A stretch of 64,000 nt of DNA from an uncultured Bacteroidales bacterium (GTDB taxonomy: Bacteria; Bacteroidota; Bacteroidia; Bacteroidales; FEN-979): the NCBI GenBank assembly GCA_903945175.1, contig CAJAUM010000138.1, forward strand, positions 1-64,000. The letters are read 5' to 3'. The position numbers were made by a program, and so were the translations under genes. Below, in pieces: positions 162 through 52,277 of the stretch. Each line of letters starts with the position of its first letter. Position 1 is the stretch's first letter. The notes beneath the pieces were generated by a model. It ran no database searches, was not told where the DNA came from, and saw only the letters and a list, made by a program, of their open reading frames with translations.

Positions 162-200
162 TTGTCACACGTCACCCTGTTACCCTGTTACCTTGTCACC
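162..200 (+). repeat. Short tandem repeat array, GTCACC/CTGTTACC type
   Basis: Five degenerate units of 7-9 bases built on GTCACC and CTGTTACC. The array stops 8 bases before the ATG of the first gene, so it occupies the place of a ribosome-binding region. The same family recurs at 14281-14318, 27938-27983 and 48730-48772, always in the same orientation on the given strand. Confidence 0.85.
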
Positions 201-208
201 ATTTTTAT

Positions 209-1408
209 ATGTATCTATCCGAAGTATCCTCCCCGAAATTACGTCGCCAGTTTTTGAATATGGTTGATACCATATACCAGGGAGACCCGAACTACGTGCG
301 TACGTTGGATTCTGAGATCAAATCGATTTTTGATCCTGCACAGAACAGCTTTTTCCAGCATGGAGAGGCCACCTGCTGGATTCTTTTCAATGATGAACAG
401 CAGGTGATTGGTCGTGTTGCTGCGTTTATAAATAAACGAAAGGCCTTCACCTTTCAGCAGCCTACCGGCGGAATGGGCTTCTTTGAATGTATCAATAACC
501 AGGAGGCCGCGTTCATGCTTTTTGACCAGGCCCGCGACTGGCTTGCTGCCCGTGGCATGCTGGCCATGGACGGACCGATCAACTTTGGTGAAAACGATGT
601 AAACTGGGGCTTGCTTGTGGAGGGTTTTATCCACCCCGGATTCGGGATGAACTACAATCCGCCCTATTACAAAGACTTCTTTGAGGCCTATGGTTTCAAG
701 TTTTATTTTGAGCAGGTCTCCAACCACCTCGACCTGACCAAACCCTTTCCCGAACGTTTCTGGAAAATTGCCGAGTGGTGCATGCGCAAGCCGGAACTCT
801 CTTTCCGTCATTTTACCTACGCCACGGCCGATAAATGCATTCACGACATGAAGGAGGTGTATGACGATGCCTGGAAATTTCATGAGAATTTCACCCCCAT
901 GGATGTCGCAACGCTGAAAAAAGGGCTTGAGAAGGCGAAATCGTTTGTTGACCCGGAGATGATCTGGTTTGTTTACCATGAGCAGGAACCCATTGCCTTT
1001 CTGATCCAGTTTCCGGATGTCAACCAGATTCTCAGGCATCTTCACGGAAAACTTCACCTGTGGAATAAATTAAAATTTCTGTGGCTGAAGTACAGGAAAA
1101 CCATCACCCGCACACGCATCGTGATTATGGGCGTAAAACCAAAATACCAGCGGTATGGCGTCGAATCAGGAATTTTCTGGCATCTCAATGAAAAGATGAA
1201 GCATAAGCCCCACATAACTGAACTCGAACTTTCATGGGTGGGCGATTTCAACCCGAAAATGCGCGCACTGCACGAATCGGTGGGGGCCACCTTCGCCAAA
1301 AGACATATCACCTACCGTAAAATATTTTCAGGCGAAGTCGAATTTCAGCGCTCCACCATTATTCCGGTCGACACTAAAGAGAAGGCATTGCGCCAGGAAG
1401 GGGGCTGA
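209..1408 (+). CDS. GNAT-like acyltransferase family protein, function unknown
   Basis: A 399-residue soluble protein with no signal peptide or membrane segment. The C-terminal third (about residues 290-380) has the look of a GNAT acetyltransferase core: a strand ending in VIMGVKPKYQRYGV, which resembles the acetyl-CoA loop region, followed by ELELSWVGDFNPKMRALHESVGA, where the last part resembles the end of a GNAT fold. A conserved-looking GPINFGENDVNWG segment lies near residue 125. Long single-gene proteins of this type occur widely in Bacteroidota with only a general N-acetyltransferase label. The start is the first ATG, right behind a repeat array. Substrate is unknown, and no neighbour suggests one. 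Confidence 0.6.
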   Translation: MYLSEVSSPKLRRQFLNMVDTIYQGDPNYVRTLDSEIKSIFDPAQNSFFQHGEATCWILFNDEQQVIGRVAAFINKRKAFTFQQPTGGMGFFECINNQEAAFMLFDQARDWLAARGMLAMDGPINFGENDVNWGLLVEGFIHPGFGMNYNPPYYKDFFEAYGFKFYFEQVSNHLDLTKPFPERFWKIAEWCMRKPELSFRHFTYATADKCIHDMKEVYDDAWKFHENFTPMDVATLKKGLEKAKSFVDPEMIWFVYHEQEPIAFLIQFPDVNQILRHLHGKLHLWNKLKFLWLKYRKTITRTRIVIMGVKPKYQRYGVESGIFWHLNEKMKHKPHITELELSWVGDFNPKMRALHESVGATFAKRHITYRKIFSGEVEFQRSTIIPVDTKEKALRQEGG

Positions 1409-1450
1409 GATTTTTTTTTTGAACTATTGCAGATTATTATTAATTTTTAA

Positions 1451-1458
1451 TATTTTTG
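1451..1458 (+). promoter_or_regulatory. Putative -7 box (TATTTTTG)
   Basis: It matches the Bacteroidota -7 consensus TAnnTTTG, with an ATTG 21 bases upstream (1426-1429) as a weak -33 element. It lies 74 bases before the likely ATG of the secreted protein at 1532. Confidence 0.5.
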
Positions 1459-1531
1459 TAGTTCTCAAAAACTTTTAATATAAATTTGTATTTATTTAAT
1501 ATTGTTATTGTCAAACCAAAAACCAAAAACC

Positions 1532-3538
1532 ATGAAAAAAATTTTACTGATTAGTCTTGCGTTTATGATTGGCCTGGCGACCATGGCTCAAAGGCCCCAG
1601 ATTAGAAATGGCGTTTTTGTCAAGGATGTTAAAAAGGCACAAATCGTTACCAACGAGCCAGCTTCACCAAACTCCATTTCCCCCGTTAAAACCAAATTTC
1701 CGGGATTGAAAAATGCCGGGAATACGAACATTGTCACCGTTCTTGATATGGGTACCTCTGCCAATGTGCTGGGTTATTCAGGCGGAACAAGAACAATGGT
1801 TTGGGCAGACAATGATCTGAATACCGTTATCAATTTTCACAGAATGGGCCCTGCTACGGCTACAACTCCACCGAGTATTTCAGGTTATCTCGGAATGGAT
1901 ATTGGCGTGAATATGGGCGCAACACAAGCCGACATCACCCCCAATGTTCAGTGTCTTGCCGCCACACTGGCCTCCTCTCCCTATTATTATGATGCCAGCA
2001 GGTACCCATCTGCTGCCATTTACAATCCGGCCGGGAATAAAGATCTTGCCAATGCCTATCTGGCCTATTTTGCACCAAATTTTGCCAACCTCGTACTCAG
2101 CGGTTTTGGCGGATACAGCTATGGTACAGTCAACATGGTTAACTATGCCGATTCAAGCAAGCACCTGAGATGGTATGACAGCAACCCCCCAACCTACATT
2201 CCTGATGGATTTACCATCTCCAAATCGGGCGTTGCCCATATGCTTGATGGCGGAACGCAAGTGTTAGACCTCACCTATATCGATAGCGTTGTCTATGGCA
2301 GGGGAATCTGGAATACAGCCACCACTGATTATGATTACACCTTCCAAACGCTTGCATTTCCTTGTGTTGAATCGTACAACGCTACCGATACGAAAATTGC
2401 TGATTCTCCTGATGGCAACACGATGTGGATGTCGGTATTGACCAGTCTTGTTGGCGCTACCCCGCTGATCAACACCTCCTTTTTTCCCGCCCTCAGAAAA
2501 TCAACCGATGGTGGTGTAACATGGAGTGATCCAATCGCCATTCAGTTGGACGGCCCGGATGGTATTGCCACAATTAAAAATACATTCAGCCAGTATTTTA
2601 TCAATAACTTTTTTGCAGATCCTATCCCAACACGTGATGAGATTCCCTACACAACGGCATTTGACCACTCCCTCACCGTTGATAAATGGGGCAACCCACA
2701 CATCGGAGTAGTTGTCGGAGTTGCATCATCTTCCACCGCCTGGAGTATTTCGACTGGCGTTGACAGCTGTCTGAATGCGTATGATATCTATAGCTTAGAC
2801 GATGGCGCCACCTGGCTTGCCGTTCATCTGGGATCATTGAGCACTTTCCGCGGAACATGGGCTACCTATACAAGTGATAACCGTATGTATGCCTCCAGAA
2901 CTCCTGATGGAGAGAAACTCTTCTTCACCTGGAATGATACGAAAATTGAAGGTGTAACGGATAACCAGAATCCAGAGGTGTATGCCCGCGGATTTGACCT
3001 CGTCAACAATAAACTTACTGCAGACGATGCCGGAGCAGCTCAGCCCGATAACGTGACCTTCCTGTCCGACATCACAACGGAAGCCTATTGGCAATGTACG
3101 GCCCCAACGGTATTTACCGCCAACAACAAATACACGTTACCTATCTGTACCCAATGGTTTGTTGATGCAGCATTGGATTCCAAGTTTAAGTATATTCCTG
3201 ATTTCTGGTATGTTGACGCCGACTTTACCGTTTCCGTTGACAACCCGCCATTCCCTGTTGGAATTGATCAGAAAAACAACGACCTTGCTTCTGTATCAGT
3301 TTATCCTAACCCTGTGAAGGATGTTGCAAAGGTTTCTCTGAATCTGAAGCAGAATGCCAATGTTTCTGTTGGCCTGACCAACCTCGTTGGACAGCAGATC
3401 CTGTCGCTGAACAAAGGAAATATGACTACCGGTTTACAGCAATTTAGCATTGATGCCAGCAGTCTTTCATCAGGCGTATATTTCCTCACCGTAAGAGTAA
3501 ACGGTCAGAAATTTACCCAGAAGATGATTGTTGAATAG
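1532..3538 (+). CDS. Secreted Asp-box (BNR-like) protein with T9SS sorting domain
   Basis: A 668-residue exported protein. The ATG at 1532 is chosen over an upstream TTG because it begins a clean signal peptide (MKKILLISLAFMIGLATMAQ). Two Asp-box-like motifs (STDGGVTW near residue 330 and SLDDGATW near 430) point to a beta-propeller of the sialidase/BNR type, but no catalytic set was identified, so enzyme activity is not claimed. The last 75 residues form a type A T9SS C-terminal domain with the usual SVYPNPVKD opening and a SGVYFLTVRVNGQ ending. It should be exported through the T9SS and attached to the surface or released. A strong hairpin terminator follows at 3561. Confidence 0.8.
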   Translation: MKKILLISLAFMIGLATMAQRPQIRNGVFVKDVKKAQIVTNEPASPNSISPVKTKFPGLKNAGNTNIVTVLDMGTSANVLGYSGGTRTMVWADNDLNTVINFHRMGPATATTPPSISGYLGMDIGVNMGATQADITPNVQCLAATLASSPYYYDASRYPSAAIYNPAGNKDLANAYLAYFAPNFANLVLSGFGGYSYGTVNMVNYADSSKHLRWYDSNPPTYIPDGFTISKSGVAHMLDGGTQVLDLTYIDSVVYGRGIWNTATTDYDYTFQTLAFPCVESYNATDTKIADSPDGNTMWMSVLTSLVGATPLINTSFFPALRKSTDGGVTWSDPIAIQLDGPDGIATIKNTFSQYFINNFFADPIPTRDEIPYTTAFDHSLTVDKWGNPHIGVVVGVASSSTAWSISTGVDSCLNAYDIYSLDDGATWLAVHLGSLSTFRGTWATYTSDNRMYASRTPDGEKLFFTWNDTKIEGVTDNQNPEVYARGFDLVNNKLTADDAGAAQPDNVTFLSDITTEAYWQCTAPTVFTANNKYTLPICTQWFVDAALDSKFKYIPDFWYVDADFTVSVDNPPFPVGIDQKNNDLASVSVYPNPVKDVAKVSLNLKQNANVSVGLTNLVGQQILSLNKGNMTTGLQQFSIDASSLSSGVYFLTVRVNGQKFTQKMIVE

Positions 3539-3560
3539 TTTGTGAATTGTTTCATTTTGA

Positions 3561-3593
3561 AAAACCCCACGGCATTGCCGCGGGGTTTTTTTT
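3561..3593 (+). terminator. Rho-independent terminator
   Basis: A hairpin with AAAACCCC pairing to GGGGTTTT, an A/C mismatch, an inner CGGC/GCCG stem and a 3-base loop, followed by an 8-base T run. It ends the secreted-protein transcript. The TATCTTTG box of the next gene begins on the last T. Confidence 0.9.
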
Positions 3594-3600: not shown

Positions 3601-3622
3601 CAAAAAATTTCACGAACAACAG

Positions 3623-4282: not shown

Positions 4283-4414
4283 AAATTTGGGGATTTGGGG
4301 ATTTGGGGATTTGAGGATTTGAGGATTTGAGGATTTGGGGATTTGGGGATTTGAGGATTTGAGGATTTGGAAATGTGGGGATTTGAAAATTTGGGAATTT
4401 GGGAATTTGGAAAT
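4281..4414 (+). repeat. Tandem octamer array, GGGGATTT/GAGGATTT type
   Basis: About 16 units of 8 bases (GGGGATTT, GAGGATTT, later GGGAATTT and GGAAATGT variants) beginning at the last base of the ccmB stop codon. The reverse strand of the same family is found near cinA (17881-17922) and inside the SpoU methyltransferase gene (50371-50463). No promoter-like box was seen in it. Confidence 0.9.
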
Positions 4415-4436
4415 GTCTGTAAATAAAACATAAGTA

Positions 4437-4499
4437 TTGGTCATTGGTAATTGGTCATTGGTAATTGGTCATTGGTAATTGGTAATTGGTCATTGGTAA
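4437..4499 (+). repeat. Tandem heptamer array, GGTCATT/GGTAATT type
   Basis: Nine units of 7 bases, mixing GGTCATT and GGTAATT, ending 14 bases before the ccmC ATG. With the octamer array before it, it fills nearly the whole 231-base gap between ccmB and ccmC. Confidence 0.9.
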
Positions 4500-5171: not shown

Positions 5172-5243
5172 ATTGGTCATTCGTCATTGGTCATTGGTCA
5201 TTGGTCATTGGTCATTGGTCATTCGTAAAACGTAAATCGTAAA
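5172..5243 (+). repeat. Tandem heptamer array, GGTCATT then CGTAAAT
   Basis: It starts 2 bases after the ccmC stop codon: GGTCATT, CGTCATT, then GGTCATT copies, then three CGTAAAA/CGTAAAT units. It ends 10 bases before the next ATG and covers almost the full intergenic gap. Confidence 0.9.
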
Positions 5244-5252
5244 TTTAACACA

Positions 5253-5399: not shown

Positions 5400-5986
5400 A
5401 AACCATACATATTGTAATCATCCTGATCCTTGTTGTTGCGGTTGCGGTTGTAATCACCACCATGACCGATTCAAGTACCTATTCCGATTTTGCGGAGGCC
5501 TCCCTTAAACAAGGCAAAGAGCTGCACATCATTGGGAAACTGAACCGGGCAAAACCAATGGAATATGATGCACAAAAAAATGCCAACCAGTTCTCCTTCT
5601 ATATGGTAGATGAAAAAGGCGTTGAGAAACAGGTGATCTACAGCAATGCAAAGCCCCAGGATTTTGAGAAATCGGAAAAGGTCGTTGTCATTGGTTCGAT
5701 GAAGGGGGACCAATTTATAGCAAAAAGTCTGCTTTTGAAATGCCCCTCCAAGTACAATGATAAAAAAGCGCCTTCGAAATTCGGCAGCAAAAAATTTAGC
5801 GAAATTCGTCATTCGTCACTGTTCACTGGCAATTCGTCAGTGGTCATTGGTCATTTGTCAATCATAATTTGTACCGCTCCCTCTCACATTTCATTTCTGC
5901 GATCGAATCGGCCGGCGAGCTGGTTCGCATCAAGGGTTTTGTCTCCCCCCACCTGGAGATCACGGAGATTGCTGACCGGATGGTGA
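5396..5986 (+). CDS. ccmE: Cytochrome c-type heme chaperone CcmE, with abnormal C-terminal extension
   Basis: The N-terminal membrane anchor (residues 4-24) is followed by the OB-fold region and a CPSKY motif at residues 116-120. This is the Cys-x3-Tyr form of the heme attachment site rather than His-x3-Tyr. CcmE takes heme from CcmC and delivers it for attachment to apocytochromes. CcmE proteins of this type normally end a few residues after this motif. Here the reading frame has no stop: it runs through KKAPSKFGSKKF, then through a GTCATT-type array (5801-5864), and on for 118 bases inside the next gene in another frame, giving 196 residues. The array seems to have replaced the native stop. 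Product integrity past residue 125 is uncertain. Confidence 0.8.
   Translation: MKTIHIVIILILVVAVAVVITTMTDSSTYSDFAEASLKQGKELHIIGKLNRAKPMEYDAQKNANQFSFYMVDEKGVEKQVIYSNAKPQDFEKSEKVVVIGSMKGDQFIAKSLLLKCPSKYNDKKAPSKFGSKKFSEIRHSSLFTGNSSVVIGHLSIIICTAPSHISFLRSNRPASWFASRVLSPPTWRSRRLLTGW
5801..5864 (+). repeat. Degenerate tandem heptamer array, CGTCATT/GGTCATT type, inside the ccmE frame
   Basis: Units ATTCGTC, ATTCGTC, ACTGTTC, ACTGGCA, ATTCGTC, AGTGGTC, ATTGGTC, ATTTGTC. The array ends just before the TTG start of the UbiD gene. It is the most diverged of the GTCATT arrays and is read as protein at the end of ccmE. Confidence 0.85.
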
Positions 5987-14280: not shown

Positions 14281-14318
14281 TTACCCTGTTACCTTGTTAC
14301 TTTGTCACCTTGTCACCT
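14281..14318 (+). repeat. Tandem array, CTGTTACC/TTGTCACC type, between convergent genes
   Basis: Five 8-base-like units (TTACCCTG, TTACCTTG, TTACTTTG, TCACCTTG, TCACC). It fills the 42-base space between the stop codons of the C69 peptidase and the convergent TonB receptor. No hairpin terminator is present there. Confidence 0.88.
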
Positions 14319-17880: not shown

Positions 17881-17922
17881 ATCCCAAATCTTCAAATCTT
17901 CAAATTTTCAAATCTTCAAATT
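17881..17922 (-). repeat. Tandem octamer array, GAAGATTT type, over the cinA stop
   Basis: Units of AAATCTTC and AAATTTTC on the given strand. The last four codons and the TGA stop of cinA (17908-17910) lie inside the array, so the repeat supplies the stop codon. Confidence 0.85.
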
Positions 17923-19161
17923 CTTTCTCAACATATTCAGCGCCTGCAGCGCCGTTCTTCGTATGTTCCGGTCACGGCTGTCGCCGAATGCGTATTGTTT
18001 GGCGATTACCTCCTGCGGTGTGGCAATGGCAATCCAGGTTGTTCCCACAGGTTTTTCAGGAGTACCCCCGTCGGGACCTGCAATACCGGAGGTTGCAACG
18101 ACATAGTCCACATTAAACATGGTTTGTGCTGCAAGTGCCATTTCGGTAACCACCTCCCTGCTTACAGCGCCATGTTTTTCGAGAAGATCATCGGGGATGT
18201 GCAGGATGTTCTGCTTGATTTCATTGGCGTAGGGGACGAGAGACCCTTTGAAATAGGCGGAACTTCCCGGAATGCTGGTAATCAGGTGCGCAATGTAGCC
18301 GCCGGTACAACTTTCGACTGTTGCCAGTGTGGCATTCTTCTTCTTTAATAATTGACCTACGATCTCTTCCAGGGTCTCTTCATCATGTCCGAACAGGTAT
18401 TCTGCGATAAGGATTTCCAGCCTGGCAACTTCTGCATCCACCTGCGCCCGGATAATATCTTCCTCCTTGCCTGTCCCTGATAACCGAAGCCTGACAATGC
18501 CCGGCTGGGGGAGGTAAGCCAGTTTAATTTGCGGTGGAAGCGCCGACTCCCATTCCTCAATCTGCGCCGCCAGAAATGATTCGCCGATACCCTGTGTCAG
18601 CAAGGTCTTGTGATAGATGAATGGGGTGTGAAATAGCTCTTTCAGCTTTGGAATGATGTACCCGGTCATCATCCCCTTCATCTCGAAGGGGACCCCTGGC
18701 ATAGAGACAAAAACTGTTTTCCCGCCTCCGGGGCGGTCCTTCTCAAACCACATGCCCCTGGCGGTACCCGCTTTATTCGGAATGCCTGTACAATGTTCAG
18801 GCAGTTCAGCCTGCTGCCGGTTGAGTTCGGTGACCGCATAGCCCCGCCTGGCAAAGATCTCTTCAACATCGCGGTAGGCCGCTTCATTAAAAACCAACCG
18901 GCTCCCGAAGAATTCACAAAGTGTATGTTTGGTGATATCATCTTTGGTAGGACCGATCCCTCCCGAGATAAGTACGATACCGGCGCGCATCTCTGCCCCG
19001 GACAGCGACGCAAGGATATCCCCCCGGTCGTCGCGGATCACCGTGACCTGACTGACTGAGAATCCCGAAAGGTTTAACTGTTCTGCCATCCAGGAAGCAT
19101 TGGTGTTGATGACCTGCCCGATCAGCAATTCATCGCCTATATTGATTATTTCTACGTTCAT
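17908..19161 (-). CDS. cinA: CinA: competence/damage-inducible protein A, nicotinamide-nucleotide amidase type
   Basis: 417 residues with both CinA parts. Residues 1-170 form a molybdopterin-binding-like (COG1058) domain (EIINIGDELLIGQVINTNASWMA, SGGIGPTKDDITK). Residues 255-415 form the amidase domain (TLATVESCTGGYIAHLITSIPGSSAYF and TSGIAGPDGGTPEKPVGT). The family removes nicotinamide from NMN or hydrolyses ADP-ribose in pyridine nucleotide repair. The start ATG lies 5 bases from a TAATTTTG box, so the mRNA may be nearly leaderless. The stop codon and the residues before it come from the tandem octamer array. Confidence 0.93.
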   Translation of the reverse strand: MNVEIINIGDELLIGQVINTNASWMAEQLNLSGFSVSQVTVIRDDRGDILASLSGAEMRAGIVLISGGIGPTKDDITKHTLCEFFGSRLVFNEAAYRDVEEIFARRGYAVTELNRQQAELPEHCTGIPNKAGTARGMWFEKDRPGGGKTVFVSMPGVPFEMKGMMTGYIIPKLKELFHTPFIYHKTLLTQGIGESFLAAQIEEWESALPPQIKLAYLPQPGIVRLRLSGTGKEEDIIRAQVDAEVARLEILIAEYLFGHDEETLEEIVGQLLKKKNATLATVESCTGGYIAHLITSIPGSSAYFKGSLVPYANEIKQNILHIPDDLLEKHGAVSREVVTEMALAAQTMFNVDYVVATSGIAGPDGGTPEKPVGTTWIAIATPQEVIAKQYAFGDSRDRNIRRTALQALNMLRKNLKI

Positions 19162-22121: not shown

Positions 22122-22148
22122 GTCACGCGTCATGCGTCACGTGTCACG
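22122..22148 (+). repeat. Tandem heptamer array, GTCACGC type, over the sugar transferase stop
   Basis: Four units (GTCACGC, GTCATGC, GTCACGT, GTCACG) between convergent genes. The TGA stop of the minus-strand sugar transferase (22137-22139) and its last codons (Arg-Asp-Thr) are inside the array. A T run (22114-22121) lies just before it. Confidence 0.88.
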
Positions 22149-22769
22149 TTTTTTCCTCGGCCTGAACAAGCTGGCAAAGGTCAGAAACAGAATCTGAACG
22201 TACGCTCCCAGCCCCTGGTTTTCGATGTAGCGCATGTTAAGCTGGATTTTGGCCGGCATCACCTCTTCAATATAGGTTTTTTCAGGATCTGAGGATCTTC
22301 CGAGAATCTCATTTTCTGATATAAATTCAATGGATGCGTGGTCGGTAATCCCTGGTCTGACGGTCAGGATAATCCGCTGTTCGGGGGTATAGCAATCAAC
22401 GTATTTGCGGATTTCCGGTCGCGGACCGACCAGGCTCATCTCTCCCTTTAAAACATTGATCAGTTGAGGAAGTTCGTCCAGTTTTAATGTCCTAAGAAAA
22501 AATCCGATGCGGGTGATCCGGCTGTCACGGGCTCCAACAGTCAGCCCTCCATGCTTTTCAGCGCCCATAGCCATCGTCCGGAATTTGATCAGCCTGAAAT
22601 CTTTACCGTTTTTACCAACCCGTATCTGAAAATAGAAAATTCCACCCCTGGAATCAATGGAAATTAACAGTGCGATCACAATAAAAAGGGGAAAAAGGAC
22701 CAGCAGCCCTGCAAATGAAAGTAGTATGTCAAAAAATCGGATCAAAACTTCGTCATTTAAAATCGTCAC
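22137..22769 (-). CDS. Initiating sugar (glycosyl-1-phosphate) transferase, monotopic PglC/WcaJ type
   Basis: 210 residues with one N-terminal hydrophobic segment (about 15-35) and the conserved core: GGIFYFQIRVGKNGKDFRLIKFRTM, LKLDELPQLINVLKGEMSLVGPRPE, PGITDHASIEF. These enzymes move a sugar-1-phosphate from a UDP-sugar to undecaprenyl phosphate and start glycan assembly at the inner membrane. The start is GTG at 22769, located inside a tandem heptamer array. The next gene upstream on this strand is a DegT aminotransferase that probably makes the amino-sugar. The pair looks like part of a surface-glycan or lipid-linked oligosaccharide route. The tail KKRDT and stop are formed by the repeat at 22122-22148. 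Confidence 0.9.
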   Translation of the reverse strand: MTILNDEVLIRFFDILLSFAGLLVLFPLFIVIALLISIDSRGGIFYFQIRVGKNGKDFRLIKFRTMAMGAEKHGGLTVGARDSRITRIGFFLRTLKLDELPQLINVLKGEMSLVGPRPEIRKYVDCYTPEQRIILTVRPGITDHASIEFISENEILGRSSDPEKTYIEEVMPAKIQLNMRYIENQGLGAYVQILFLTFASLFRPRKKRDT

Positions 22770-22861
22770 TCGTCACTCGTCACTCGTCACTCGTCATTGG
22801 TCATTGGTCATTGGTCATTGGTCATTGGTCATTGGTCATTGGTCATTGGTCATTGGTCATT
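22764..22861 (+). repeat. Tandem heptamer array: 4 CGTCACT, 1 CGTCATT, 9 GGTCATT
   Basis: Fourteen units of exactly 7 bases with no indels. The GGTCATT part (22799-22861) is perfect. The aminotransferase stop (22864-22866) and the sugar transferase GTG (22767-22769) border it, so the entire gap of 94 bases between these two minus-strand genes is repeat. Confidence 0.97.
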
Positions 22862-22863
22862 GG

Positions 22864-24078
22864 TCATACTCCAATGATGGTCATGACTGACGCTTCTACC
22901 GCCTCCACCACCGTATCTGCCATTTCATCGGTCAGATCATAATACACTGGTAAACTGATCTCTCTGGAAAAATTATCATAGGCCACAGGATAATCCTTGA
23001 TCTGATATCCTTCATTGCGGTAGTACGTCATCATGGGCAGGGGTACGAAATGAACATTCACAGCAACTTCACGCGAAAAAATCTCACGGATGACCTGGTC
23101 TCGCTGCGCTTCGGAAATTCCGCGGATGCGCAATAAAAACACATGATAGGATGATCTTTTATTGTGAGATTCGTATTCGGGAACCTGTGCCCATTTATAA
23201 GATGAAAATGCGGAGGCATAACGGTCGAAAATCTGTTTGCGTCTTACCAGCATGTCTCCTTCGTACCGCGAAAGTTCTACCAGTCCGATAGAGGCCTGGA
23301 TATCAGTCATGTTGAACTTGTAGCCCGGTTCGATGATGTCGTAACGCCATCCCCCGACCTGTGTTTTCGCAAGGGCATCCTTGGTTTGTCCGTGCAGCGA
23401 CTTGGCGTTCAGGGCACGGTAAATGGCATCGTGATCGAATGGTTCAGGCAAATTCAGGCAAACAGCGCCTCCTTCAGCCGTGGTAAGGTTTTTTACAGCG
23501 TGGAAGGAGTAAACAGTGATGTCCGTAAGATTCCCGACCCGCTTGCCATGATATTGTCCGCCAATTGAGTGCGCTGCATCTGACAGAACCAGTATCCTGT
23601 TCAGTATGTGCTGTTCCTTCGATTCTGCTTGGAAAAGATGCTGTATCTCTGGTTTTTTAACAAGGGCATTGATGGAATCGTAATCACAGGGCCATCCTGC
23701 AATATCCACCGGCATGATGACTTTGGTGCGTGGGGTAATGGCTTTCTCAATGGATTCAAGGGAGATGTTAAAGTCTGCCCCCACATCCACAAAAACTACC
23801 TTTGCACCGCAGTGCACCACCACATTGGCTGTGGCTGAATAGGTATAGGCGGGTACAATGACCTCATCGCCCGCCTTCACGCCATACCAGCGAAGCATCA
23901 GCTCAAGGCCGGCTGAAGCTGAACTGACACACAGGGTGATTCGCTGTCCGCCATAGGCCGATAAAAGCTTCTCAAACTTCTTCGTCTTCGGCCCGGTGGT
24001 GATCCACCCTGAATAGAGTGTGTCGACGACCTCATCGACGATACGCTGGTCCATACGGGGCGGGGAGAATGGAATCAC
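22864..24078 (-). CDS. DegT/DnrJ/EryC1/StrS family nucleotide-sugar aminotransferase
   Basis: 404 residues. PLP-dependent sugar aminotransferase features: the N-terminal IPFSPPRMDQRIVDEVVDTLYSGWITTGPKTKKFE, a VIVPAYTYSATANVV loop, the PLP lysine in YSFHAVKNLTTAEGG (SxHxxK near residue 215) and the GYKFNMTDIQASIG tail motif. It should transfer an amino group to a 4-keto nucleotide sugar. The start is GTG at 24078 (reads MIPFSPP), which matches the family. It is followed by the sugar transferase, with only a repeat array between, so the two probably supply an amino-sugar glycan. purC lies upstream on the same strand. Confidence 0.9.
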   Translation of the reverse strand: MIPFSPPRMDQRIVDEVVDTLYSGWITTGPKTKKFEKLLSAYGGQRITLCVSSASAGLELMLRWYGVKAGDEVIVPAYTYSATANVVVHCGAKVVFVDVGADFNISLESIEKAITPRTKVIMPVDIAGWPCDYDSINALVKKPEIQHLFQAESKEQHILNRILVLSDAAHSIGGQYHGKRVGNLTDITVYSFHAVKNLTTAEGGAVCLNLPEPFDHDAIYRALNAKSLHGQTKDALAKTQVGGWRYDIIEPGYKFNMTDIQASIGLVELSRYEGDMLVRRKQIFDRYASAFSSYKWAQVPEYESHNKRSSYHVFLLRIRGISEAQRDQVIREIFSREVAVNVHFVPLPMMTYYRNEGYQIKDYPVAYDNFSREISLPVYYDLTDEMADTVVEAVEASVMTIIGV

Positions 24079-24080: not shown

Positions 24081-24101
24081 TGAATTACGAATTACGAATT
24101 G
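24081..24101 (-). repeat. Short tandem array, AATTACG type, over the purC stop
   Basis: Three AATTACG-like heptamers. The purC TAA (24092-24094) lies within it, and the array ends 2 bases before the GTG of the aminotransferase. Confidence 0.75.
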
Positions 24102-25042
24102 TTCAGGAAGTTTAGGATGTTGGATTCGATGCGCTGAAGGATATTGGTGGATTCAGCACGGATGAATTTTTCGCCGGTGATTCCTTCGTAAAGTTCGATA
24201 TAGCGATCGGAGATCTCCTTGATCCATGCATCGCTCATCTCAGGAACCTGCTGCCCCTCTTTTCCCATAAAGCCATTTGCCATAAGCCATTCGCGGACAA
24301 ATTCCTTCGAAAGCTGGCGCTGCTGCTGCCCGGTTGCCTGGCGCTCCTCATATCCTTCAAGATAGAAATAGCGGGATGAATCTGGTGTATGAATCTCATC
24401 ACACAGGTAGATTTTTCCATCATGGCCCTTGCCGAATTCATATTTGGTGTCAACAAGGATCAACCCTTTTTGTGCAGCCATCTCTGTTCCACGTTGAAAG
24501 ATGGCATGGGTGAATTTTTTGATCAGATCATAGTCCTCTTTTGGAATCAGGCCCTGGGCAAGGATTTCAGCTTCAGTGATGTCTTCATCATGTCCCTCGG
24601 CTGCTTTCGTGGTCGGGGTGATGATCGGATGAGCAAACCGCTGGTGCTCCTTCATGCCATCCGGAACCGCGACGCCACAGATTACCCTCGATCCCTTCTG
24701 GTACGAACGCCATGAACTGCCTGTAAGATAACCCCGGATGATCATTTCAACCGGATAAATCTTGCAGAACCGGCCGATGGTGACGTTGGGATCGGGACTG
24801 GCGATTTTCCAGTTTGGACAAATATCATTGGTGGCATCCAGGAACTTTGAGGCTATCTGATTCAATACCTGTCCTTTGTATGGAATTCCCTTGGGTAAAA
24901 CCACATCAAAGGCAGAGATCCGGTCACTCGCAATCATCACAAGAAATTTATCGCTGATGTTGTAAACATCGCGGACTTTCCCGGTATACAGGCTTTTTTG
25001 CCCAGGGAAGAGGAAGCTGGTCTTCATTAGAACGTTTGCCAT
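24092..25042 (-). CDS. purC: SAICAR synthetase (phosphoribosylaminoimidazolesuccinocarboxamide synthase)
   Basis: 316 residues, the usual length for the Bacteroidota type. It joins CAIR and aspartate to form SAICAR in purine synthesis. Seen: [12 protein letters not shown] (nucleotide binding), [39 protein letters not shown], and [30 protein letters not shown]. The start at 25042 ([10 protein letters not shown]) agrees with a promoter box at 25060-25067. Its stop codon lies within a short AATTACG array. Confidence 0.95.
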
Positions 25043-27937: not shown

Positions 27938-27983
27938 TAATACCCTGCCAATCTGTTACTTTGTCACTCCATCACTTCATCAC
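27938..27983 (+). repeat. Degenerate array, CTGTTACT/TTGTCACT type, over the AOR stop
   Basis: Diverged units of 7-9 bases (TACCCTGCCAATCTG, TTACTTTG, TCACTCCA, TCACTTCA, TCACTG). The AOR stop codon (27980-27982) is inside it. It shows the same strand sense as the 162, 14281 and 48730 arrays. Confidence 0.6.
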
Positions 27984-30139
27984 TGCAAAGGCATCACCAC
28001 CTCCAGCAATTCCGGCAAATCCATACCGAGTTTTTTCAGATGTTCAATCCTGGGTACCCCGTTTTTTGTCCAGCCACGGCGTTCGTAAACGGCGTCAAGC
28101 AGCTGTTCATATCGGTTCTCCCGATATACACGCAACGCTTTCATTTTCTCCTCGGTGCTTTTTCCGGCCGGGTCAAAACCAACCTGCTCAAGCAGCTGTT
28201 TATCGTAACGTTCGGCGCGCGATTCATATTCCTCAATTGTAACCGGACCGCATGCACGGTATGGCTGGGCATCGTGAATACGCAATCCTTTACCCTGGCG
28301 GATGTTGAAGATTCGCTGGAAATTATATACACGTTCCGACATCGTGATGAGGTCCTGCTTTACGATGCTGGAGCCGGTAACGGCATTGAAAATGGTTACA
28401 TAGTTGTCGACATGCTGGGGAACTTTCGCCGGCTCAGCAGTTTGCGCATTGTCTTCTGGTTCCACGTCGTTCCAGGGGAGCTTGCAGAATCCTGCCAGGC
28501 CAAACCAGGTGCGGAACATGGGAAAATAATGGAGCGCTTCAGCCTTCTTTTCAAAGGTAGGAATCTGGTTGTTCACCATGTCCATGAAGATCAGCCAGGC
28601 TTCGTCGTGCTGTGGCCCCTTGTTGGTCATGGCATAGCCGCCCTGTTGTGCCAGCGATTCCTTTGAGACGTATTGCGAATATTCAAGTCCTTTGTTTTCC
28701 ATGCCGATATCCTGCATGAAGGCCGCGTCGCCCCAGCCGTTTTTTGCAAACAATGCCTTCATTTTGTGAACACCCTGGCCTGCAATGATCCCGAATCCTT
28801 CGCCGCGCGACAACTGGTGGAGTAATTCCATGGCCGTGTCAGCGTTGCCGAAATTGAGTTTCAGTCCACCTGTGCGTTCTTCGTTGAGAATGCCGTTTTC
28901 GTAACACTCCATTACAAAACCAAGAATACTGCCCCAGCTGATGGTGCAGACGCCATAGGTATCACAATAGAAATTGGCTTCGATGGTGAAATCGGGATTG
29001 AAGATCCCTGCAATGGAACCCAATGAAGAGGTCGTTTCATATTCCGGTCCGTCAACAATCACCTTATCCCCTTTGTAGGGGCCAGAGCGGAGTTCATAAT
29101 TGTCAACCCCTTTTGCACAGGCCATATTGCATCCAACCCAGCAACCATCGGGAACATTCTGCGTGAAATAGGATTTCCACACATCACCGCTGATTTTAAC
29201 GGCATCGGGATGGCTGCCGAACTTGAAATTGTTGACCGGGAGGAGGTCGTAGTCGTTCATGACGAGGGTGAGGTGGGCCGTTCCCTTCGACCGCATTTCA
29301 CATTGCTTGTCATCCAGATCACGCATCTCCTTGTTGAAGGTGCGGCCCCGCTCCTGGATGGCCTCCATGTTCACTACATTGTTGCGGTTTCCGCCAATGG
29401 TCTTCACATGGGCCACCACGGCCTTGATTTTCTTATCGCGCAATACGGTGCCAATGCCGCCACGGCCGGCCTGCTTCAGGCGTACTTTCTTGCGTTTGAT
29501 ATCGTAAAAACTGAAGTTCAGCATCCCGATCAGCGAGTGCTCCGCAGCAGTACCGGCCGAAACGACCGATACGTTGTATTTGTCTTTTTCATTTCCGGGA
29601 ACGGCCAGCATATCATGCAACGCTTCGGCCAGCACATGGCTGTCGGAGGGGAGGTCGCCTGCTTCGTAAATTTCGATCACTGCACGTTCTTCTTCGAATA
29701 CAATCATGATCTCCTGGTCTGATTTTCCCTGGATTTCAAGTGCATCAAATCCGCAGAACTTAAGAAAAGGTCCAAAAAAACCACCCACATTGGAGTCAAC
29801 CACGATGTCGGTTTGAGGACTGATGGCACAACAAATGGCCTTTCCGCTTCCGGAATACTGGGTAATTCCACAACAGGGTCCTCCCGAAATAACAATTTCA
29901 TTCTCAGGATCATCCCATCTCGTTTCAGGTTTGGTGGCATCCCACAGAAGCCGCAAATCAAAACCCTTTCCCCCAATGAATTTTTCCTTCATTTGCGAGG
30001 TTACGGGTTTCTCTTTGATGGTCAAATCCCCGACGTTGATGTAAACAGATCTGTTGTTATAACCCTTGTCAATCGGAGCCCAGGTATACTTGTACTGAGC
30101 CAGCAGTTTATGGGTTGACTTAAAATCTTCAAATGTCAT
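27980..30139 (-). CDS. Aldehyde ferredoxin oxidoreductase family (tungsten/molybdopterin) protein
   Basis: 719 residues. The AOR N-terminal domain is seen in KFIGGKGFDLRLLWDA and VISGGPCCGITQYSGSGKA (pterin binding), with a GRGGIGTVLRDKKIKAVV motif near residue 225. A Cys cluster GCWVGCNMACAKG (C-x3-C-x3-C) stands where the [4Fe-4S] ligands are expected, and later Cys residues could provide the fourth ligand. Such enzymes oxidise aldehydes to acids or, as in BamB-type complexes, reduce aromatic acyl-CoA. The substrate is not defined. A promoter box precedes it. The nearby pyruvate/oxaloacetate carboxyltransferase and ThiF/ThiS pair could be linked by metabolism or cofactor supply. Confidence 0.88.
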   Translation of the reverse strand: MTFEDFKSTHKLLAQYKYTWAPIDKGYNNRSVYINVGDLTIKEKPVTSQMKEKFIGGKGFDLRLLWDATKPETRWDDPENEIVISGGPCCGITQYSGSGKAICCAISPQTDIVVDSNVGGFFGPFLKFCGFDALEIQGKSDQEIMIVFEEERAVIEIYEAGDLPSDSHVLAEALHDMLAVPGNEKDKYNVSVVSAGTAAEHSLIGMLNFSFYDIKRKKVRLKQAGRGGIGTVLRDKKIKAVVAHVKTIGGNRNNVVNMEAIQERGRTFNKEMRDLDDKQCEMRSKGTAHLTLVMNDYDLLPVNNFKFGSHPDAVKISGDVWKSYFTQNVPDGCWVGCNMACAKGVDNYELRSGPYKGDKVIVDGPEYETTSSLGSIAGIFNPDFTIEANFYCDTYGVCTISWGSILGFVMECYENGILNEERTGGLKLNFGNADTAMELLHQLSRGEGFGIIAGQGVHKMKALFAKNGWGDAAFMQDIGMENKGLEYSQYVSKESLAQQGGYAMTNKGPQHDEAWLIFMDMVNNQIPTFEKKAEALHYFPMFRTWFGLAGFCKLPWNDVEPEDNAQTAEPAKVPQHVDNYVTIFNAVTGSSIVKQDLITMSERVYNFQRIFNIRQGKGLRIHDAQPYRACGPVTIEEYESRAERYDKQLLEQVGFDPAGKSTEEKMKALRVYRENRYEQLLDAVYERRGWTKNGVPRIEHLKKLGMDLPELLEVVMPLQ

Positions 30140-30261: not shown

Positions 30262-30282
30262 CGTCACGCGTCACGCGTCACG
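30262..30282 (+). repeat. Three perfect CGTCACG heptamers after pycB
   Basis: Exactly three tandem copies of CGTCACG, beginning one base after the pycB stop (30284-30286, minus strand). Confidence 0.92.
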
Positions 30283-48154: not shown

Positions 48155-48156
48155 AT

Positions 48157-48237
48157 TCGCTGCTTCGCTGCTTTGCTGCCTCGCTGCCTCGCTGCCTCGC
48201 TATTCGATGCCCATACCTCGCTAGTTCGCCACCTTGC
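48157..48237 (+). repeat. Tandem octamer array, GCTGCCTC type
   Basis: Units TCGCTGCT, TCGCTGCT, TTGCTGCC, TCGCTGCC repeated, then degenerate copies. It fills the gap between porV and ispF. A similar GCTGCC family was not found elsewhere in the window. Confidence 0.85.
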
Positions 48238-48722: not shown

Positions 48723-48729
48723 AACTATT

Positions 48730-48772
48730 CACCCTGTCACCTTGTCACCCTGTTACCCTGTTACCCTGTTAC
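48730..48772 (+). repeat. Tandem octamer array, CTGTCACC/CTGTTACC type
   Basis: Five units (ACCCTGTC, ACCTTGTC, ACCCTGTT three times), starting 7 bases after the ispF stop. The family matches the 162-200 array. Confidence 0.92.
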
Positions 48773-49223: not shown

Positions 49224-49247
49224 TAACCACCCAAAATCAGTTAGATC

Positions 49248-49520
49248 ATGGCAACACAACAACAAGGTGAAATAAAGTATCTGACCCCGATTGCGGTCGA
49301 TACCAAGAGAAAAAAATATTGCCGCTTCAAAAAGAGCGGTATCAAATACATCGATTACAAAGACGCTGATTTTTTGCTCAAATTCGTCAATGAACAGGGC
49401 AAATTGCTTCCCCGCCGTATTACCGGTACATCTACCAAATACCAGCGGAAAGTGGCACAGGCAGTTAAACGGGCCCGGCACATTGCCTTGATGCCCTATG
49501 TTGGAGACTTATTAAAATAA
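49248..49520 (+). CDS. rpsR: 30S ribosomal protein S18
   Basis: 90 residues. The segments [50 protein letters not shown] are diagnostic. It follows S6 by 24 bases and precedes L9 by 12 bases. Confidence 0.97.
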
Positions 49521-49532
49521 GGAGGCGGAACC

Positions 49533-49982
49533 ATGGAAGTAATTTTAAAACAAGACGTCCTTAACCTGGGCTATACGAACGAAAAGGTAAACGTAAAGCC
49601 CGGTTATGCCAGGAATTATCTGATTCCCCAGGGCTTCGCCATTCTCGCCACCGAATCCAACAAAAAGATTTTGGCCGAGACCCTGAAGCAAAAAGCGCAC
49701 AAAGAATCAAAAATCCGTAAATCTGCCGAAGATCTTTCCGAAGGATTGAAAAATCTGACAGTAAGAATCGGTGCAAAAGCCGCCGAAAGTGGAAAAATCT
49801 TCGGATCGGTGAATGCCATCCAGATCGCCCAGGCGCTTAAAGAGCAGTTCGACTTTGAGGTGGACCGCAAAAAGATCCATGTCGACCACGAACACATCAA
49901 AGAATTGGGTACCTACAAAGCAAAGATTCACCTGCACAAGGATGTTCAGGTTGAAATTAACTTTGAAGTTTTTGCCGAGTAG
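49533..49982 (+). CDS. rplI: 50S ribosomal protein L9
   Basis: 149 residues. The N-terminus MEVILKQDVLNLGYTNEKVNVKPGYARNYLIPQGFA is typical of L9, with the C-terminal KIFGSVNAIQIAQAL domain. Ends the operon, followed by a strong hairpin. Confidence 0.97.
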   Translation: MEVILKQDVLNLGYTNEKVNVKPGYARNYLIPQGFAILATESNKKILAETLKQKAHKESKIRKSAEDLSEGLKNLTVRIGAKAAESGKIFGSVNAIQIAQALKEQFDFEVDRKKIHVDHEHIKELGTYKAKIHLHKDVQVEINFEVFAE

Positions 49983-50044
49983 TCAGGTATTTACTGATTG
50001 GTCAGGTATCTGCTGAACAGTCATACTGAAAAATTCGTAATTTT

Positions 50045-50077
50045 ATCCCGGGATCCTGACGATTCCGGGATTTTTTT
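50045..50077 (+). terminator. Terminator of the S6-S18-L9 operon
   Basis: An 11-bp stem (ATCCCGGGATC with GATTCCGGGAT, one G-T pair), 5-base loop and 7 Ts. The next gene's ATG starts at the base after the T run. Confidence 0.92.
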
Positions 50078-50923
50078 ATGCTGTCGCAAAATCAACTCAA
50101 ACATATCTCCGCCCTCAAGGTAAAAAAGTACCGCGAGGAGTTCAGTCAATTCATCGCCGAAGGCCACAAGCTGGTGATGGATCTGATCAACAGCGAATTC
50201 AGCATTGCCGGCATCTATGCCTCGGCCGACTGGATCGTTACAAATCTTTCTGTGATCAGGGAAAAGGATATTCCCGTTTTTGAAACGTTACCCCGCGAAA
50301 TGGAACGGATCTCAGCCCTCTCCACCCCAAGCCCCGTCCTCGCCGTCGTAAAAATCCCTGCAGAACAATCTTCACATCCCCAAATCCCCACATCCTCAAA
50401 TTCCCAAATCCCCAAATCTTCACATTTTCAAATCCCCACATCTTCACATCCCCAAATCCCCAAATTATTTTTAGCCCTCGACGACATCCGCGATCCCGGA
50501 AACCTCGGAACCATCATCCGCATCGCCGACTGGTTTGGCATGGCCACCGTGCTCTGCTCCGAAAATTGTGTCGATCTCTATAACCCGAAGGTCGTTCAGG
50601 CAACCATGGGCTCCATTGCCCGTGTCAGCGTGATCCGTTGCAACCTTGCCGAAACCCTTGCCACCCTGTCAGAGTCTTCTGGCGGTTTTCCTGTTTATGG
50701 TGCACTGCTGGAAGGAGAATCCATCTTTTCACAAACGCTTACCGACCATGGAATCATCCTGATCGGCAACGAATCCCGCGGAATTTCGCCTGAATTGATC
50801 CCGTTTATCACCCAAAAGATTTTTATTCCCTCGTTCGGCAGTTCCGAATTGGGCAAGGCCGAATCACTCAATGCCTCCATCGCTACCGCCATCATCTGCG
50901 CCGAATTCCGGAAAAAAACCTGA
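50078..50923 (+). CDS. SpoU/TrmH family RNA methyltransferase with repeat-derived linker
   Basis: 281 residues. N-terminal substrate-binding domain (about 1-95: MLSQNQLKHISALKVKKYREEF with AEGHKLV), then a linker, then the SpoU knot domain: ALDDIRDPGNLGTIIRIADWFG (motif 1), GIILIGNESRGISPEL (motif 2) and ELGKAESLNASIATAII (motif 3). The methyl donor is S-adenosylmethionine and the target is 2'-OH of an rRNA or tRNA ribose. Residues about 98-129 are four 8-residue repeats (SSHPQIPT, SSNSQIPK, SSHFQIPT, SSHPQIPK) encoded by an octamer array of the GGGGATTT family on the reverse strand (50371-50463). The start ATG follows the terminator T run directly. Confidence 0.9.
   Translation: MLSQNQLKHISALKVKKYREEFSQFIAEGHKLVMDLINSEFSIAGIYASADWIVTNLSVIREKDIPVFETLPREMERISALSTPSPVLAVVKIPAEQSSHPQIPTSSNSQIPKSSHFQIPTSSHPQIPKLFLALDDIRDPGNLGTIIRIADWFGMATVLCSENCVDLYNPKVVQATMGSIARVSVIRCNLAETLATLSESSGGFPVYGALLEGESIFSQTLTDHGIILIGNESRGISPELIPFITQKIFIPSFGSSELGKAESLNASIATAIICAEFRKKT
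50371..50463 (+). repeat. Octamer array inside the SpoU methyltransferase gene
   Basis: About 11 units of CCCAAATC/CCCACATC/CTCAAATT/TTCACATT. The frame stays open. Three units of 8 bases make 8 codons, which produces the SxxPQIPx octapeptide repeats. It is the reverse complement of the 4281-4414 family. Confidence 0.93.
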
Positions 50924-50936
50924 AAATTAGTTATCA

Positions 50937-52277
50937 ATGTCCCTCGTCCCTCGTCATTCGTCCCTCGTCATTGGTCATTGGTCATTGGTTATTGGTCATT
51001 GGCCATTGGTCATTCGTCTAACACTTATCCTTCTGGCCTCCCTCTTCTCCTTCGTCTCTTTCGCAATCGGAATTTCCACCGGCAACCATTGCTACGACCC
51101 CTCCATAAAAACCGTCCAGCTCTTCAAGGCGGGTTTCGAGCTATCGTCACCCATCATTCAGCTTAACTCATCTGAACGGCTATCCATATCTTTCGACGAT
51201 CTTGATCCGGAGATCAAACGGTATAAGTTCACCATCCTGCATTGTACGTCGGACTGGCAAATCTCCGCCGACCTTACTGTTTCGGATTACATAGATGGCT
51301 ACACCGAAGAAAACATCGATCATTTCGAGTATTCTTACAATACCACCGTAAAATTCACCCATTTTTCGGCCTCCTTCCCCACGGATAATATGCGACCGAA
51401 AATATCGGGCAATTACCTGCTTATTGTGTATGAAGATGATCCATCCGTCATGGCCTTTACGGCCCGCTTCATGGTGGTGGAAGCCTCTCCTGTGGTGGCG
51501 GAGGGAACCATTGCGCAGAGCTCCGTGATCGAAGACCGCCAAACACGCCAGCAGATCGACTTTGTGGTCAGGCTCAACGGATTCCAGGTACGTGATGTGG
51601 AGCGCGAAATCAGGGTCGTACTGCAGCAAAATGGTCGTTGGGACAATGCCATCGGGATATCCAAACCACGCTTTTCCCGGCCTGATGAGCTTGATTACCG
51701 GTACGATGCAGCGATCGCCTTTAACGGAGGCAATCAGTTTCGCTATTTCGACATCAAAAGTTTGATTTATCAGTCGGAACGCATTGCAAAGATCAGGTAC
51801 GATACCCTGAACCAGGTGGTTTTACTCTATGATCAACCCCGCACCTTCAAACAATACACCTTTGAGAAAGATCTGAACGGGCGTTTTTACATAAAAAATG
51901 AGGAACACGCCCAAAGCAGTCAAACGGAAGCGGATTATGCCCTCGTTCATTTTTTCCTGCCCTATCCGACGCTCAATACCCTTGGGGAATTTCATATCGT
52001 AGGCGAACTCACCGGCTGGCAGCTGGATGAGGGAAGCCTGATGAAATTCAACCCCACCCGGAGAGGATACGAGTTGAACCTGCTCCTCAAGCAAGGATAT
52101 TATAATTATATATATATCCTGAAAGAAAAAAACAGACCGGCCGGCGATGAAACCCTCATCGAAGGAAGCCACTGGGAAACCGAAAACGAATATACGGTTT
52201 ATGTCTACTTTCATGAAACCGGCTCCCTGTACGACCGGCTCATTGCCGTAAACTTCATCAATGCCTTGCAGCCCTAG
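50937..52277 (+). CDS. T9SS plug protein (DUF5103 family) with repeat-derived leader
   Basis: 446 residues in the longest form. The N-terminal 25 residues (MSLVPRHSSLVIGHWSLVIG...) are just the translation of a tandem GGTCATT array. The real signal peptide likely begins at a TTG at 51006 (VIRLTLILLASLFSFVSFAIG), also within the array. The mature part fits the family: ISTGNHCYDPSIKTVQLFKAGFELSSPIIQLNSSERL, then ILHCTSDWQISADLTVSDYIDGY, and an Ig-like end with FHIVGELTGWQLDE. Plug proteins close the outer membrane pore of the T9SS translocon. It follows the methyltransferase by 13 bases. Confidence 0.82.
   Translation: MSLVPRHSSLVIGHWSLVIGHWPLVIRLTLILLASLFSFVSFAIGISTGNHCYDPSIKTVQLFKAGFELSSPIIQLNSSERLSISFDDLDPEIKRYKFTILHCTSDWQISADLTVSDYIDGYTEENIDHFEYSYNTTVKFTHFSASFPTDNMRPKISGNYLLIVYEDDPSVMAFTARFMVVEASPVVAEGTIAQSSVIEDRQTRQQIDFVVRLNGFQVRDVEREIRVVLQQNGRWDNAIGISKPRFSRPDELDYRYDAAIAFNGGNQFRYFDIKSLIYQSERIAKIRYDTLNQVVLLYDQPRTFKQYTFEKDLNGRFYIKNEEHAQSSQTEADYALVHFFLPYPTLNTLGEFHIVGELTGWQLDEGSLMKFNPTRRGYELNLLLKQGYYNYIYILKEKNRPAGDETLIEGSHWETENEYTVYVYFHETGSLYDRLIAVNFINALQP
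50940..51016 (+). repeat. Tandem heptamer array, CGTCCCT/CGTCATT/GGTCATT type, read as leader
   Basis: Units CGTCCCT, CGTCATT, CGTCCCT, CGTCATT, then GGTCATT (with GGTTATT and GGCCATT variants). It overlaps the annotated start of the plug protein and ends in its signal peptide. Confidence 0.9.

Follow-up and report, generated by a model that had tools for sequence, protein, structure and literature searches.

How do tandem arrays of very short units come to occupy the gaps between bacterial genes, and how do they spread from one gap to another? The question is raised by a 64-kb stretch of DNA (hereafter the window) from an uncultured Bacteroidales bacterium, the first 64 kb of contig C138 in a genome, here G000, of 4,407,724 bases in 155 contigs. 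Reports of heptamer arrays in scattered bacteria go back decades, and the short tandemly repeated repetitive (STRR) sequences of cyanobacteria are intergenic head-to-tail 7-mers; we know of no account of how heptamer arrays arise or spread. The first-pass annotation reported at least 16 arrays with units of 7 or 8 bases in the left 51 kb of the window, and 16 sites of period 7 or 8 were indeed found between positions 174 and 51018 by Tandem Repeats Finder (TRF), reading of the raw letters and an autocorrelation scan. On balance, we lean to the reading that these arrays are lineage-specific microsatellites of 7 or 8 nt, shaped by slippage of units and by copying of blocks between arrays, with selection acting on their location.

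The analysis was extended from the window to 859 kb of G000 (the window and 40 further stretches) and to relatives; G-numbers denote genomes, L-numbers denote fetched stretches, and the porV regions of close relatives are called PorV loci. The first 20 G000 stretches were partly chosen on contigs or positions with matches to the word GGTCATT, and with the window they hold 78 arrays per 464 kb, compared with 35 arrays per 395 kb in the second sample; the stretches of G019 and G008 were likewise chosen on word matches. Genes were called with a simple hexamer model made for this analysis. Array lists fold periods 14, 21, 16 and 24 into 7 and 8, which lets in a few coding stretches of period 21 or 24 (e.g., L113:2337 and L120:12801) that are probably protein repeats.

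The unit length of the arrays proved far more constant than their sequence. Of 113 arrays in the 859 kb, 87 have period 7 and 26 have period 8. Without the period filter, segments scoring at least 14 had period 7 in 61 cases and period 8 in 16; of the remaining periods up to 24, those other than multiples of 7 or 8 had 0–5 segments each. In the first 464 kb, 43 such segments had period 7 and 14 had period 8, with none at periods 2–6 and 0–2 at each of periods 9–13, and a single composition-preserving shuffle of the same 464 kb contained none at any period. With units within the range of 5–11 nt and lengths beyond chance, the G000 arrays qualify as long simple sequence repeats. There are many word classes, two of which make up 23 and 22 of the 113 arrays, and the 7-mer register holds across changes of word (L116:18313-18472, L114:1-167 and L126:1-161). 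Three tandem copies of GGTCATT (GGTCATTx3), with up to two mismatches, gave 327 overlapping matches across the G000 genome, and the reversed word gave none. The idea that most intergenic DNA consists of decayed arrays was rejected, since the residual signal at lags 7 and 8 was weak once the arrays had been masked.

Any preference for particular words is mild at most. Privileged words were rejected as a candidate after four copies of xGTCATT were found in 10 of 395 Bacteroidota genomes (G000 included) and the reversed pattern in 21. In contigs labelled as viral, GGTCATTx3 occurred in 27 stretches versus 12, 9 and 15 for three other letter orders; a fourth pattern, which is a rotation of one of the three, gave 7. 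Several of these 27 stretches (L175-L201) have a G+C content of 0.62–0.69 and carry several further 7-mer arrays, so that either similar arrays exist in high-GC organisms or bacterial DNA has been mislabelled as viral.

The same periods recur in relatives. The closest named relatives of the window's PorV protein come from metagenome-assembled genomes (MAGs) labelled Bacteroidales or Bacteroidetes, a few of them oddly labelled, and in 39 PorV loci of close relatives 44 segments had period 7 and 18 had period 8. Both periods were found in G003 (where 8-mers form 21 of 32 arrays), G018, G019, G008 and G010; in G025 and G033 the score was reached at period 7 and not at 8. Samples of 79–80 kb each from G038, G039, G057 and G059, which belong to four different families elsewhere in the order, held 0–2 arrays apiece. 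GGTCATTx3 was present in 7 of the 149 genomes searched, G000 included, with 124 matches in G000 and a further 60 in a single species outside its genus; within the genus of G000 it was found in only 4 of 19 genomes and was absent from 15.

Orthologous sites carry different words in different species, as the first-pass annotation had predicted for relatives. In the gap between porV and ispF, arrays were present in 15 of 36 readable loci (39 examined), with one unit class common to two related loci. A script counted 20 distinct units in this gap, which amount to 19 in substance because the 16-mer of L072 and the 8-mer of L027 are one homologous array. Likewise, the linker between the two domains of an rRNA methylase, which holds an array in the window, contains unrelated words in other species: CACATCAG in L012/L080, CGAATGCA and TTACCACA in L013/L089, and, given on the other strand, ATGTGATG in L082. 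The spacer between the methylase domains measured 30–114 nt and was a multiple of three in all 54 rows in which both domains were found, some of these rows being one genome entered via two collections. In relatives of 86% identity, array copies differed by exactly 8 bp. Near the same conserved genes we also saw repeats of period 15 (L003:13634-13662), 9 (L012:11816-11909) and 18 (L007:15462-15510), which are perhaps protein repeats.

A closer view of this turnover came from the sister genomes G010 and G006, whose aligned pieces, 83.5 kb in all, show about 95% identity; the comparison covered the five array-richest of 20 fetched G010 stretches and the PorV locus. Among 42 orthologous gaps, 16 had an array in either genome. 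In 15 of these both genomes had one; in the single gap with an array in G006 only, a short degenerate remnant was left in G010. Mean identity was 0.82 in array gaps (14 aligned) versus 0.97 in array-free gaps (25 aligned; p = 9e-6), and length differences of at least 10 nt were seen in 12 of 16 array gaps versus 4 of 26 array-free gaps (p = 2e-4). The consensus unit was identical in just 4 of the 15 shared-site gaps, and one of these four (L010/L035) is a period-21 stretch with no clear 7-mer array. In six alignments that were viewed, the flanks were mostly near-identical up to the array edge and the units inside had changed; the alignment at L257:10150-10420 diverges outside the array as well. 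One difference of a single 7-bp unit length separated array copies of G010 and G006. Given that sister gaps share arrays and rarely units, with near-identical flanks, sites persist and units turn over. Array sites are thus kept as their units are quickly replaced, in this one sister pair and, over longer times, at the porV-ispF gap. A genome-wide concerted change was rejected as an explanation: the words TGAGTGA and TGATTGA both occur in both sisters, and the unit shift at three sister sites is therefore not genome-wide.

Several observations point to copying of blocks between sites. Four G000 arrays, each on a different contig, follow a common irregular order of CGAATGA and CGAGTGA units; two of them are identical over 78 bp, and the four have no flank homology. 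Because these four were picked after viewing the array list, the unselected test is that on 58 heterogeneous G000 arrays. Here 7 pairs had at least four common unit switches versus a mean of 1.66 after shuffling of unit order (reached in 3 of 400 shuffles), and 4 pairs had at least five versus a mean of 0.37 (2 of 400). The window array at 4436 has 52 bp of irregular unit order in common with L116:9858, in inverted orientation. In G019, a 52-nt composite array recurs inverted 675 nt away. In that genome, at L222:4387-5165, a composite array of 7-mers and 8-mers is repeated in inverted orientation around a stretch that by eye resembles a decayed VOC/PhnB-type gene.

Orientation of same-family arrays appears to vary with distance. 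Pairs less than 100 bp apart were inverted in 11 of 15 cases, compared with 24 of 77 for pairs more than 1.5 kb apart (p = 0.003, with pairs that are not independent), and three of the four direct near pairs come from G019 and look like breaks inside one array. The distant pairs within one stretch had the same direction in 53 of 77 cases, mostly in G000 (30 of 37) and again from pairs that are not independent. All these counts drop arrays that had been sampled twice. A link to the replication strand was considered and rejected, as GC skew showed none that was clear (28 arrays leading and 14 lagging at weak skew, 7 and 16 at strong skew).

Arrays are also unevenly placed relative to genes. In the first G000 sample, 58 of 78 arrays were intergenic, 10 overlapped a gene end and 10 lay in coding sequence. 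By gap type, arrays occupied 15 of 31 convergent gaps in this sample, 37 of 180 where the genes run in tandem and 2 of 50 where they diverge; the corresponding figures for the PorV loci are 9 of 16, 30 of 183 and 1 of 39. Arrays in tandem gaps often began within 10 nt past the upstream stop codon: 76% did so in G000 versus 36% under uniform placement (a value reached in 0 of 2000 simulations), 67 versus 28% in the PorV loci and 73 versus 23% in G033/G036. The excess was clear in G019 (65 versus 30%) and smaller in G003 (75 versus 50%). For the main word families of the first G000 sample, 30 of 44 tandem-gap arrays lay closer to the upstream stop. Arrays occur in both orientations relative to the gene.

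In the account toward which we lean, slippage by whole units would lengthen and shorten arrays, with the period kept despite changes of word, a step suggested by the unit-sized differences between array copies. Blocks would pass by copying from one array to another at an unrelated location, with template switching or gene conversion through the short homology of the arrays as the probable route, consistent with the common order in G000 and the one inverted composite copy in G019. Sites last as the units inside them are replaced fast, which the sister pair and the porV-ispF gap show. Selection would set where arrays survive: coding sequence has few outside flexible linkers and protein ends, many lie directly behind stop codons, and divergent gaps have few in several, though not all, genomes. 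Arrays would further mark the edges of gene-block gain or loss. The step of 7 or 8 nt would presumably be fixed by the replication machinery. No sequence-specific function is needed, because the words keep changing. What we infer in this account are the enzymes involved, whether RecA is needed, how selection acts and why the period is limited to 7 and 8 nt.

A number of results weigh against this account. In G000 there was no excess of array pairs at three or more common switches (8 versus 6.3; 127 of 400 shuffles), and block order at six or more was also not significant; in G019, no common block order was seen, with 0 pairs at three or more switches versus a shuffled mean of 6.5. Moreover, common unit order could equally reflect an older common origin. 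The positional patterns are not uniform either. The excess in convergent gaps was not repeated in the second G000 sample (1 of 13 convergent, 20 of 144 tandem and 2 of 37 divergent gaps), in which adjacency to stop codons was weak as well (65 versus 47%; 69 of 2000 simulations). Such adjacency was not seen in G010 (14 versus 22%) and was not or barely significant in G025 and G018. Avoidance of promoters is not general, because arrays occupy 3 of 13 divergent gaps in G003, 4 of 25 in G010 and 6 of 22 in G019. Other periods do occur: G010 also shows periods 4 and 12, which stem from TGAT-like words, and G060, from another family (L152-L155), has period 10 beside period 7. Slippage alone gives no reason for the missing periods 5, 6, 9 and 10, and we did not catch an array arising at a previously empty site.

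Several alternatives invoke a different origin or role for the arrays. Each site might have expanded independently from a chance seed by slippage, and certain words would recur because they slip more readily. The mild word preference in viral-labelled contigs, the differences of exactly 8 and 7 bp between array copies and the lack of a common unit order in G019 fit such independent growth. The prominence of two word classes among the G000 arrays, the common irregular order in G000 and the inverted composite copy in G019 do not, nor does the patchy occurrence of GGTCATTx3, which is rich in a species of another genus and absent from most genomes of the same genus; we regard this explanation as possible but unlikely. 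A bolder alternative is a sequence-agnostic writing of arrays with a fixed step of 7–8 nt into intergenic DNA throughout the family, which would seed gene ends, rewrite words, move blocks in both orientations and provide homology for gain or loss of gene blocks. If this were true, the arrays would be a self-renewing recombination scaffold, a prospect we consider unlikely. The arrays might instead be written, and reseeded at gene ends, by a dedicated enzyme such as a polymerase or reverse transcriptase, either copying from a short template or slipping in steps of fixed size. A period of nearly always 7 or 8 with free sequence, the frequent flush position behind stop codons and the quick replacement of units at a fixed site would all follow. 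Yet reverse transcriptase (PF00078) matched in 27 of 41 genomes and in none of the other 14, including G010, G011, G013 and G020. Of these, G010 is rich in arrays and the MAGs are about 95% complete, and G013 and G020 carry arrays as well if L014 and L033 are theirs, as identical linkers suggest. Reverse transcriptase was accordingly rejected as the maker on the evidence of G010. Since PF00078 was the sole family searched, the alternative is weakened for reverse transcriptase only, and we rate a dedicated writing enzyme as quite unlikely. The first-pass annotation saw no spreading enzyme in the window and left the origin of the arrays open; our search, confined to PF00078, identified none either, and the data now favor slippage with copying between arrays.

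It is also conceivable that the arrays are regulatory or processing signals of mRNA, such as terminators or binding sites, that are maintained by selection. Their position behind stop codons in several genomes is in keeping with this, and the inverted near pairs could form hairpins (e.g., L131:7455-7524 and L126:3047-3161). However, the words vary between species at the porV-ispF gap, where 21 of 36 loci have no array, as well as between the sisters, and both orientations to the gene are found. An inverted partner within 100 bp was found for 26 of 225 arrays versus a null mean of 14.1 and maximum of 24, in a count that holds some arrays twice, as does the first count of pair orientation, because L027 lies inside the G036 stretches, L017 partly inside those of G018 and L031 inside those of G019. 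We find a signalling role decidedly doubtful. Finally, the arrays might be artefacts of assembling repetitive short reads. Arrays do break assemblies, as the G000 contigs L114 and L126 start inside arrays at base 1. Nevertheless, arrays lie within contigs between unique flanking sequences, their periods reappear in many MAGs from different projects, and two MAGs with separate names have arrays in common at 15 orthologous gaps. The first-pass annotation had named assembly artefact as one finding that would overturn its claim; with sites shared in this way, such an origin is hardly credible.

Two differences in gene content between the sisters touch on the proposed role of arrays in gain or loss of gene blocks. 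A 5.9-kb block of four genes is present at its site only in G006, with arrays at both edges. A second block of 8.1 kb (L292:5793-13730 versus L242:5553-5762 in G010), also present at its site only in G006, has arrays at both edges as well. According to Pfam, it holds the rnf operon, encoding two Rnf-Nqr membrane subunits, an FMN-binding protein, RnfD/E, RnfC and iron-sulphur proteins, followed by genes for a dihydroorotate dehydrogenase-like protein, RseC and ApbE. The match to RnfC was full in G006; in the G010 assembly the matches were all short and weak. As G010 as assembled has no RnfC anywhere, the block was gained or lost rather than moved, and the two sister species differ substantially in metabolism through its presence or absence. 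The third difference, at L010:11759-11938, spans 1.8 kb and is free of arrays, which speaks against the connection. The two cases are suggestive of arrays marking the edges of gene-block gain or loss.

Heptamer arrays as such are already known from cyanobacteria, Xanthomonas, Beggiatoaceae and five Bacteroidetes; what is new is the 7/8-base arrays of this Bacteroidales family, of which we found no description in the open-access literature searched. The likeness to STRR sequences proposed in the first-pass annotation holds for the tandem intergenic form and the several unit families per genome in G000. It is not exact for the heptanucleotide unit, because 8-mers are a large minority in G000 and the majority in G003, and the host belongs to the Bacteroidota and not to the cyanobacteria. 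Beyond what STRR sequences offer for comparison, word turnover at orthologous gaps has been measured for the Bacteroidales arrays. Three STRR heptanucleotides are described for Calothrix (PMC4692102). The annotation further knew of no general description for Bacteroidota, which needs correction: MacGregor (2015; PMC4679880) reports TAACTGA heptamer arrays in Beggiatoaceae, cyanobacteria and five Bacteroidetes. The arrays are described there as mostly intergenic, also at protein ends and mixed with other heptamers, as differing by 7-nt steps between close Cyanothece strains, and as having a proposed role in rearrangement. The Bacteroidales arrays resemble them in being mostly intergenic 7-mers that also occur at protein ends, mix different heptamers and can differ in length by a 7-nt step. 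Unlike the TAACTGA arrays, which as described there have one word and in Beggiatoaceae lie mostly just upstream of start codons, the Bacteroidales arrays are more often found behind stops, and none of the 113 arrays of the G000 sample is a TAACTGA array. As cited in PMC4679880 and PMC4692102, Mrazek et al. (2007) found heptanucleotides commonest in most genomes among long simple sequence repeats of the 5–11 nt class and proposed slippage at a 7-nt polymerase-contact length. In contrast to that class as so cited, the Bacteroidales arrays, which that study perhaps did not treat, have periods 7 and 8 to the near exclusion of others. PMC4692102 also describes GGGAATC and GGGGAYT repeats in Xanthomonas and Nostoc; like the Bacteroidales arrays, these show many heptamer arrays per genome, heterogeneous units and prominently long arrays that lie at different genes in two species. 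Those repeats form one G-rich word class with quadruplex potential, whereas the Bacteroidales words are diverse and mostly otherwise. Because the Bacteroidales family offers many related genomes, persisting sites with changing units and a sister pair at 95% identity, the step size, the movement of arrays from site to site and their influence on gain or loss of genes are all testable by comparison and, given a cultivated relative, by experiment, making it a good place to study the rise and spread of such repeats.

Table 1. Array sites of period 7 or 8 in the 64-kb window, with their gene context.
Feature	Position	Strand	Evidence
8-mer array, ACCCTGTT type	174..200	+	TRF, autocorrelation
8-mer array ATTTGGGG/ATTTGGAA, begins 3 nt past ccmB stop (4282)	4285..4414	+	TRF, raw sequence, autocorrelation; genes by Pfam
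7-mer array ATTGGTC/ATTGGTA	4436..4499	+	autocorrelation
Composite 7-mer array, GGTCATT then CGTAAAT, directly behind ccmC stop (5170)	5172..5244	+	TRF, raw sequence, autocorrelation
Degenerate 7-mer array in 3' part of ccmE reading frame, downstream of CcmE domain	5804..5860	+	TRF, raw sequence, Pfam
8-mer array TTACCTTG, 38 of 42 nt between convergent stops 14276 and 14319	14281..14318	+	raw sequence, autocorrelation
8-mer array CAAATCTT, overlaps 3' end of cinA-like gene 17908-19161 (-)	17885..17921	+	TRF, autocorrelation
7-mer array GTCACGC	22122..22149	+	TRF, autocorrelation
Composite 7-mer array, CGTCACT then GGTCATT, spans entire 94-nt gap of two minus-strand genes	22763..22867	+	TRF, raw sequence, autocorrelation
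Short 7-mer array GAATTAC, overlaps 3' end of SAICAR synthetase (PurC) gene 24092-25042 (-)	24082..24100	+	TRF, autocorrelation
Degenerate 8-mer array TCACTCCA, TRF score 35	27964..27984	+	TRF, raw sequence
7-mer array CGTCACG	30262..30282	+	TRF, autocorrelation
8-mer array TTCGCTGC in porV-ispF gap	48156..48201	+	autocorrelation
8-mer array TCACCCTG behind ispF, upstream of rpsF	48729..48772	+	autocorrelation
8-mer array within rRNA methylase gene 50078-50923, in linker of its two Pfam domains, in frame	50368..50462	+	autocorrelation, Pfam
7-mer array GTCCCTC/GTCATTG, opening of T9SS plug reading frame	50939..51018	+	TRF, raw sequence, autocorrelation

The sites of the window are collected in Table 1. 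The three weakest, at 24082, 27964 and 30262, reached TRF scores of just 35–42, and past 51.1 kb there are only weak matches, namely CAATGTA at 53107-53126 (TRF score 33, coding) and a period-21 stretch at 52498. The arrays at 4285 and 4436 together occupy most of the ccmB-ccmC gap. The first-pass annotation had CGTCAYT units joined to GGTCATT units in a fixed order at 5172, 22764 and 50940, which did not survive inspection, as the orders vary between arrays: CGTC units precede GGTC units at 22763, the order is CGTC, GGTC, CGTC at 50939, and the array at 5172 opens with GGTC, CGTC, GGTC and closes with CGTA units. GGTC units precede CGTC units in L114:85-167, L126:1-161 and, on the other strand, L116:18313-18472. 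At 50937-51050 the T9SS plug reading frame starts within an array that may supply the N-terminus or the start codon of the gene, and the hydrophobic stretch that follows the array looks by eye like a signal peptide. For purC of Flexibacter litoralis, PMC4679880 mentions a pair of TAACTGA units close to the end of the gene, which parallels the window array at the 3' end of purC, perhaps by coincidence.

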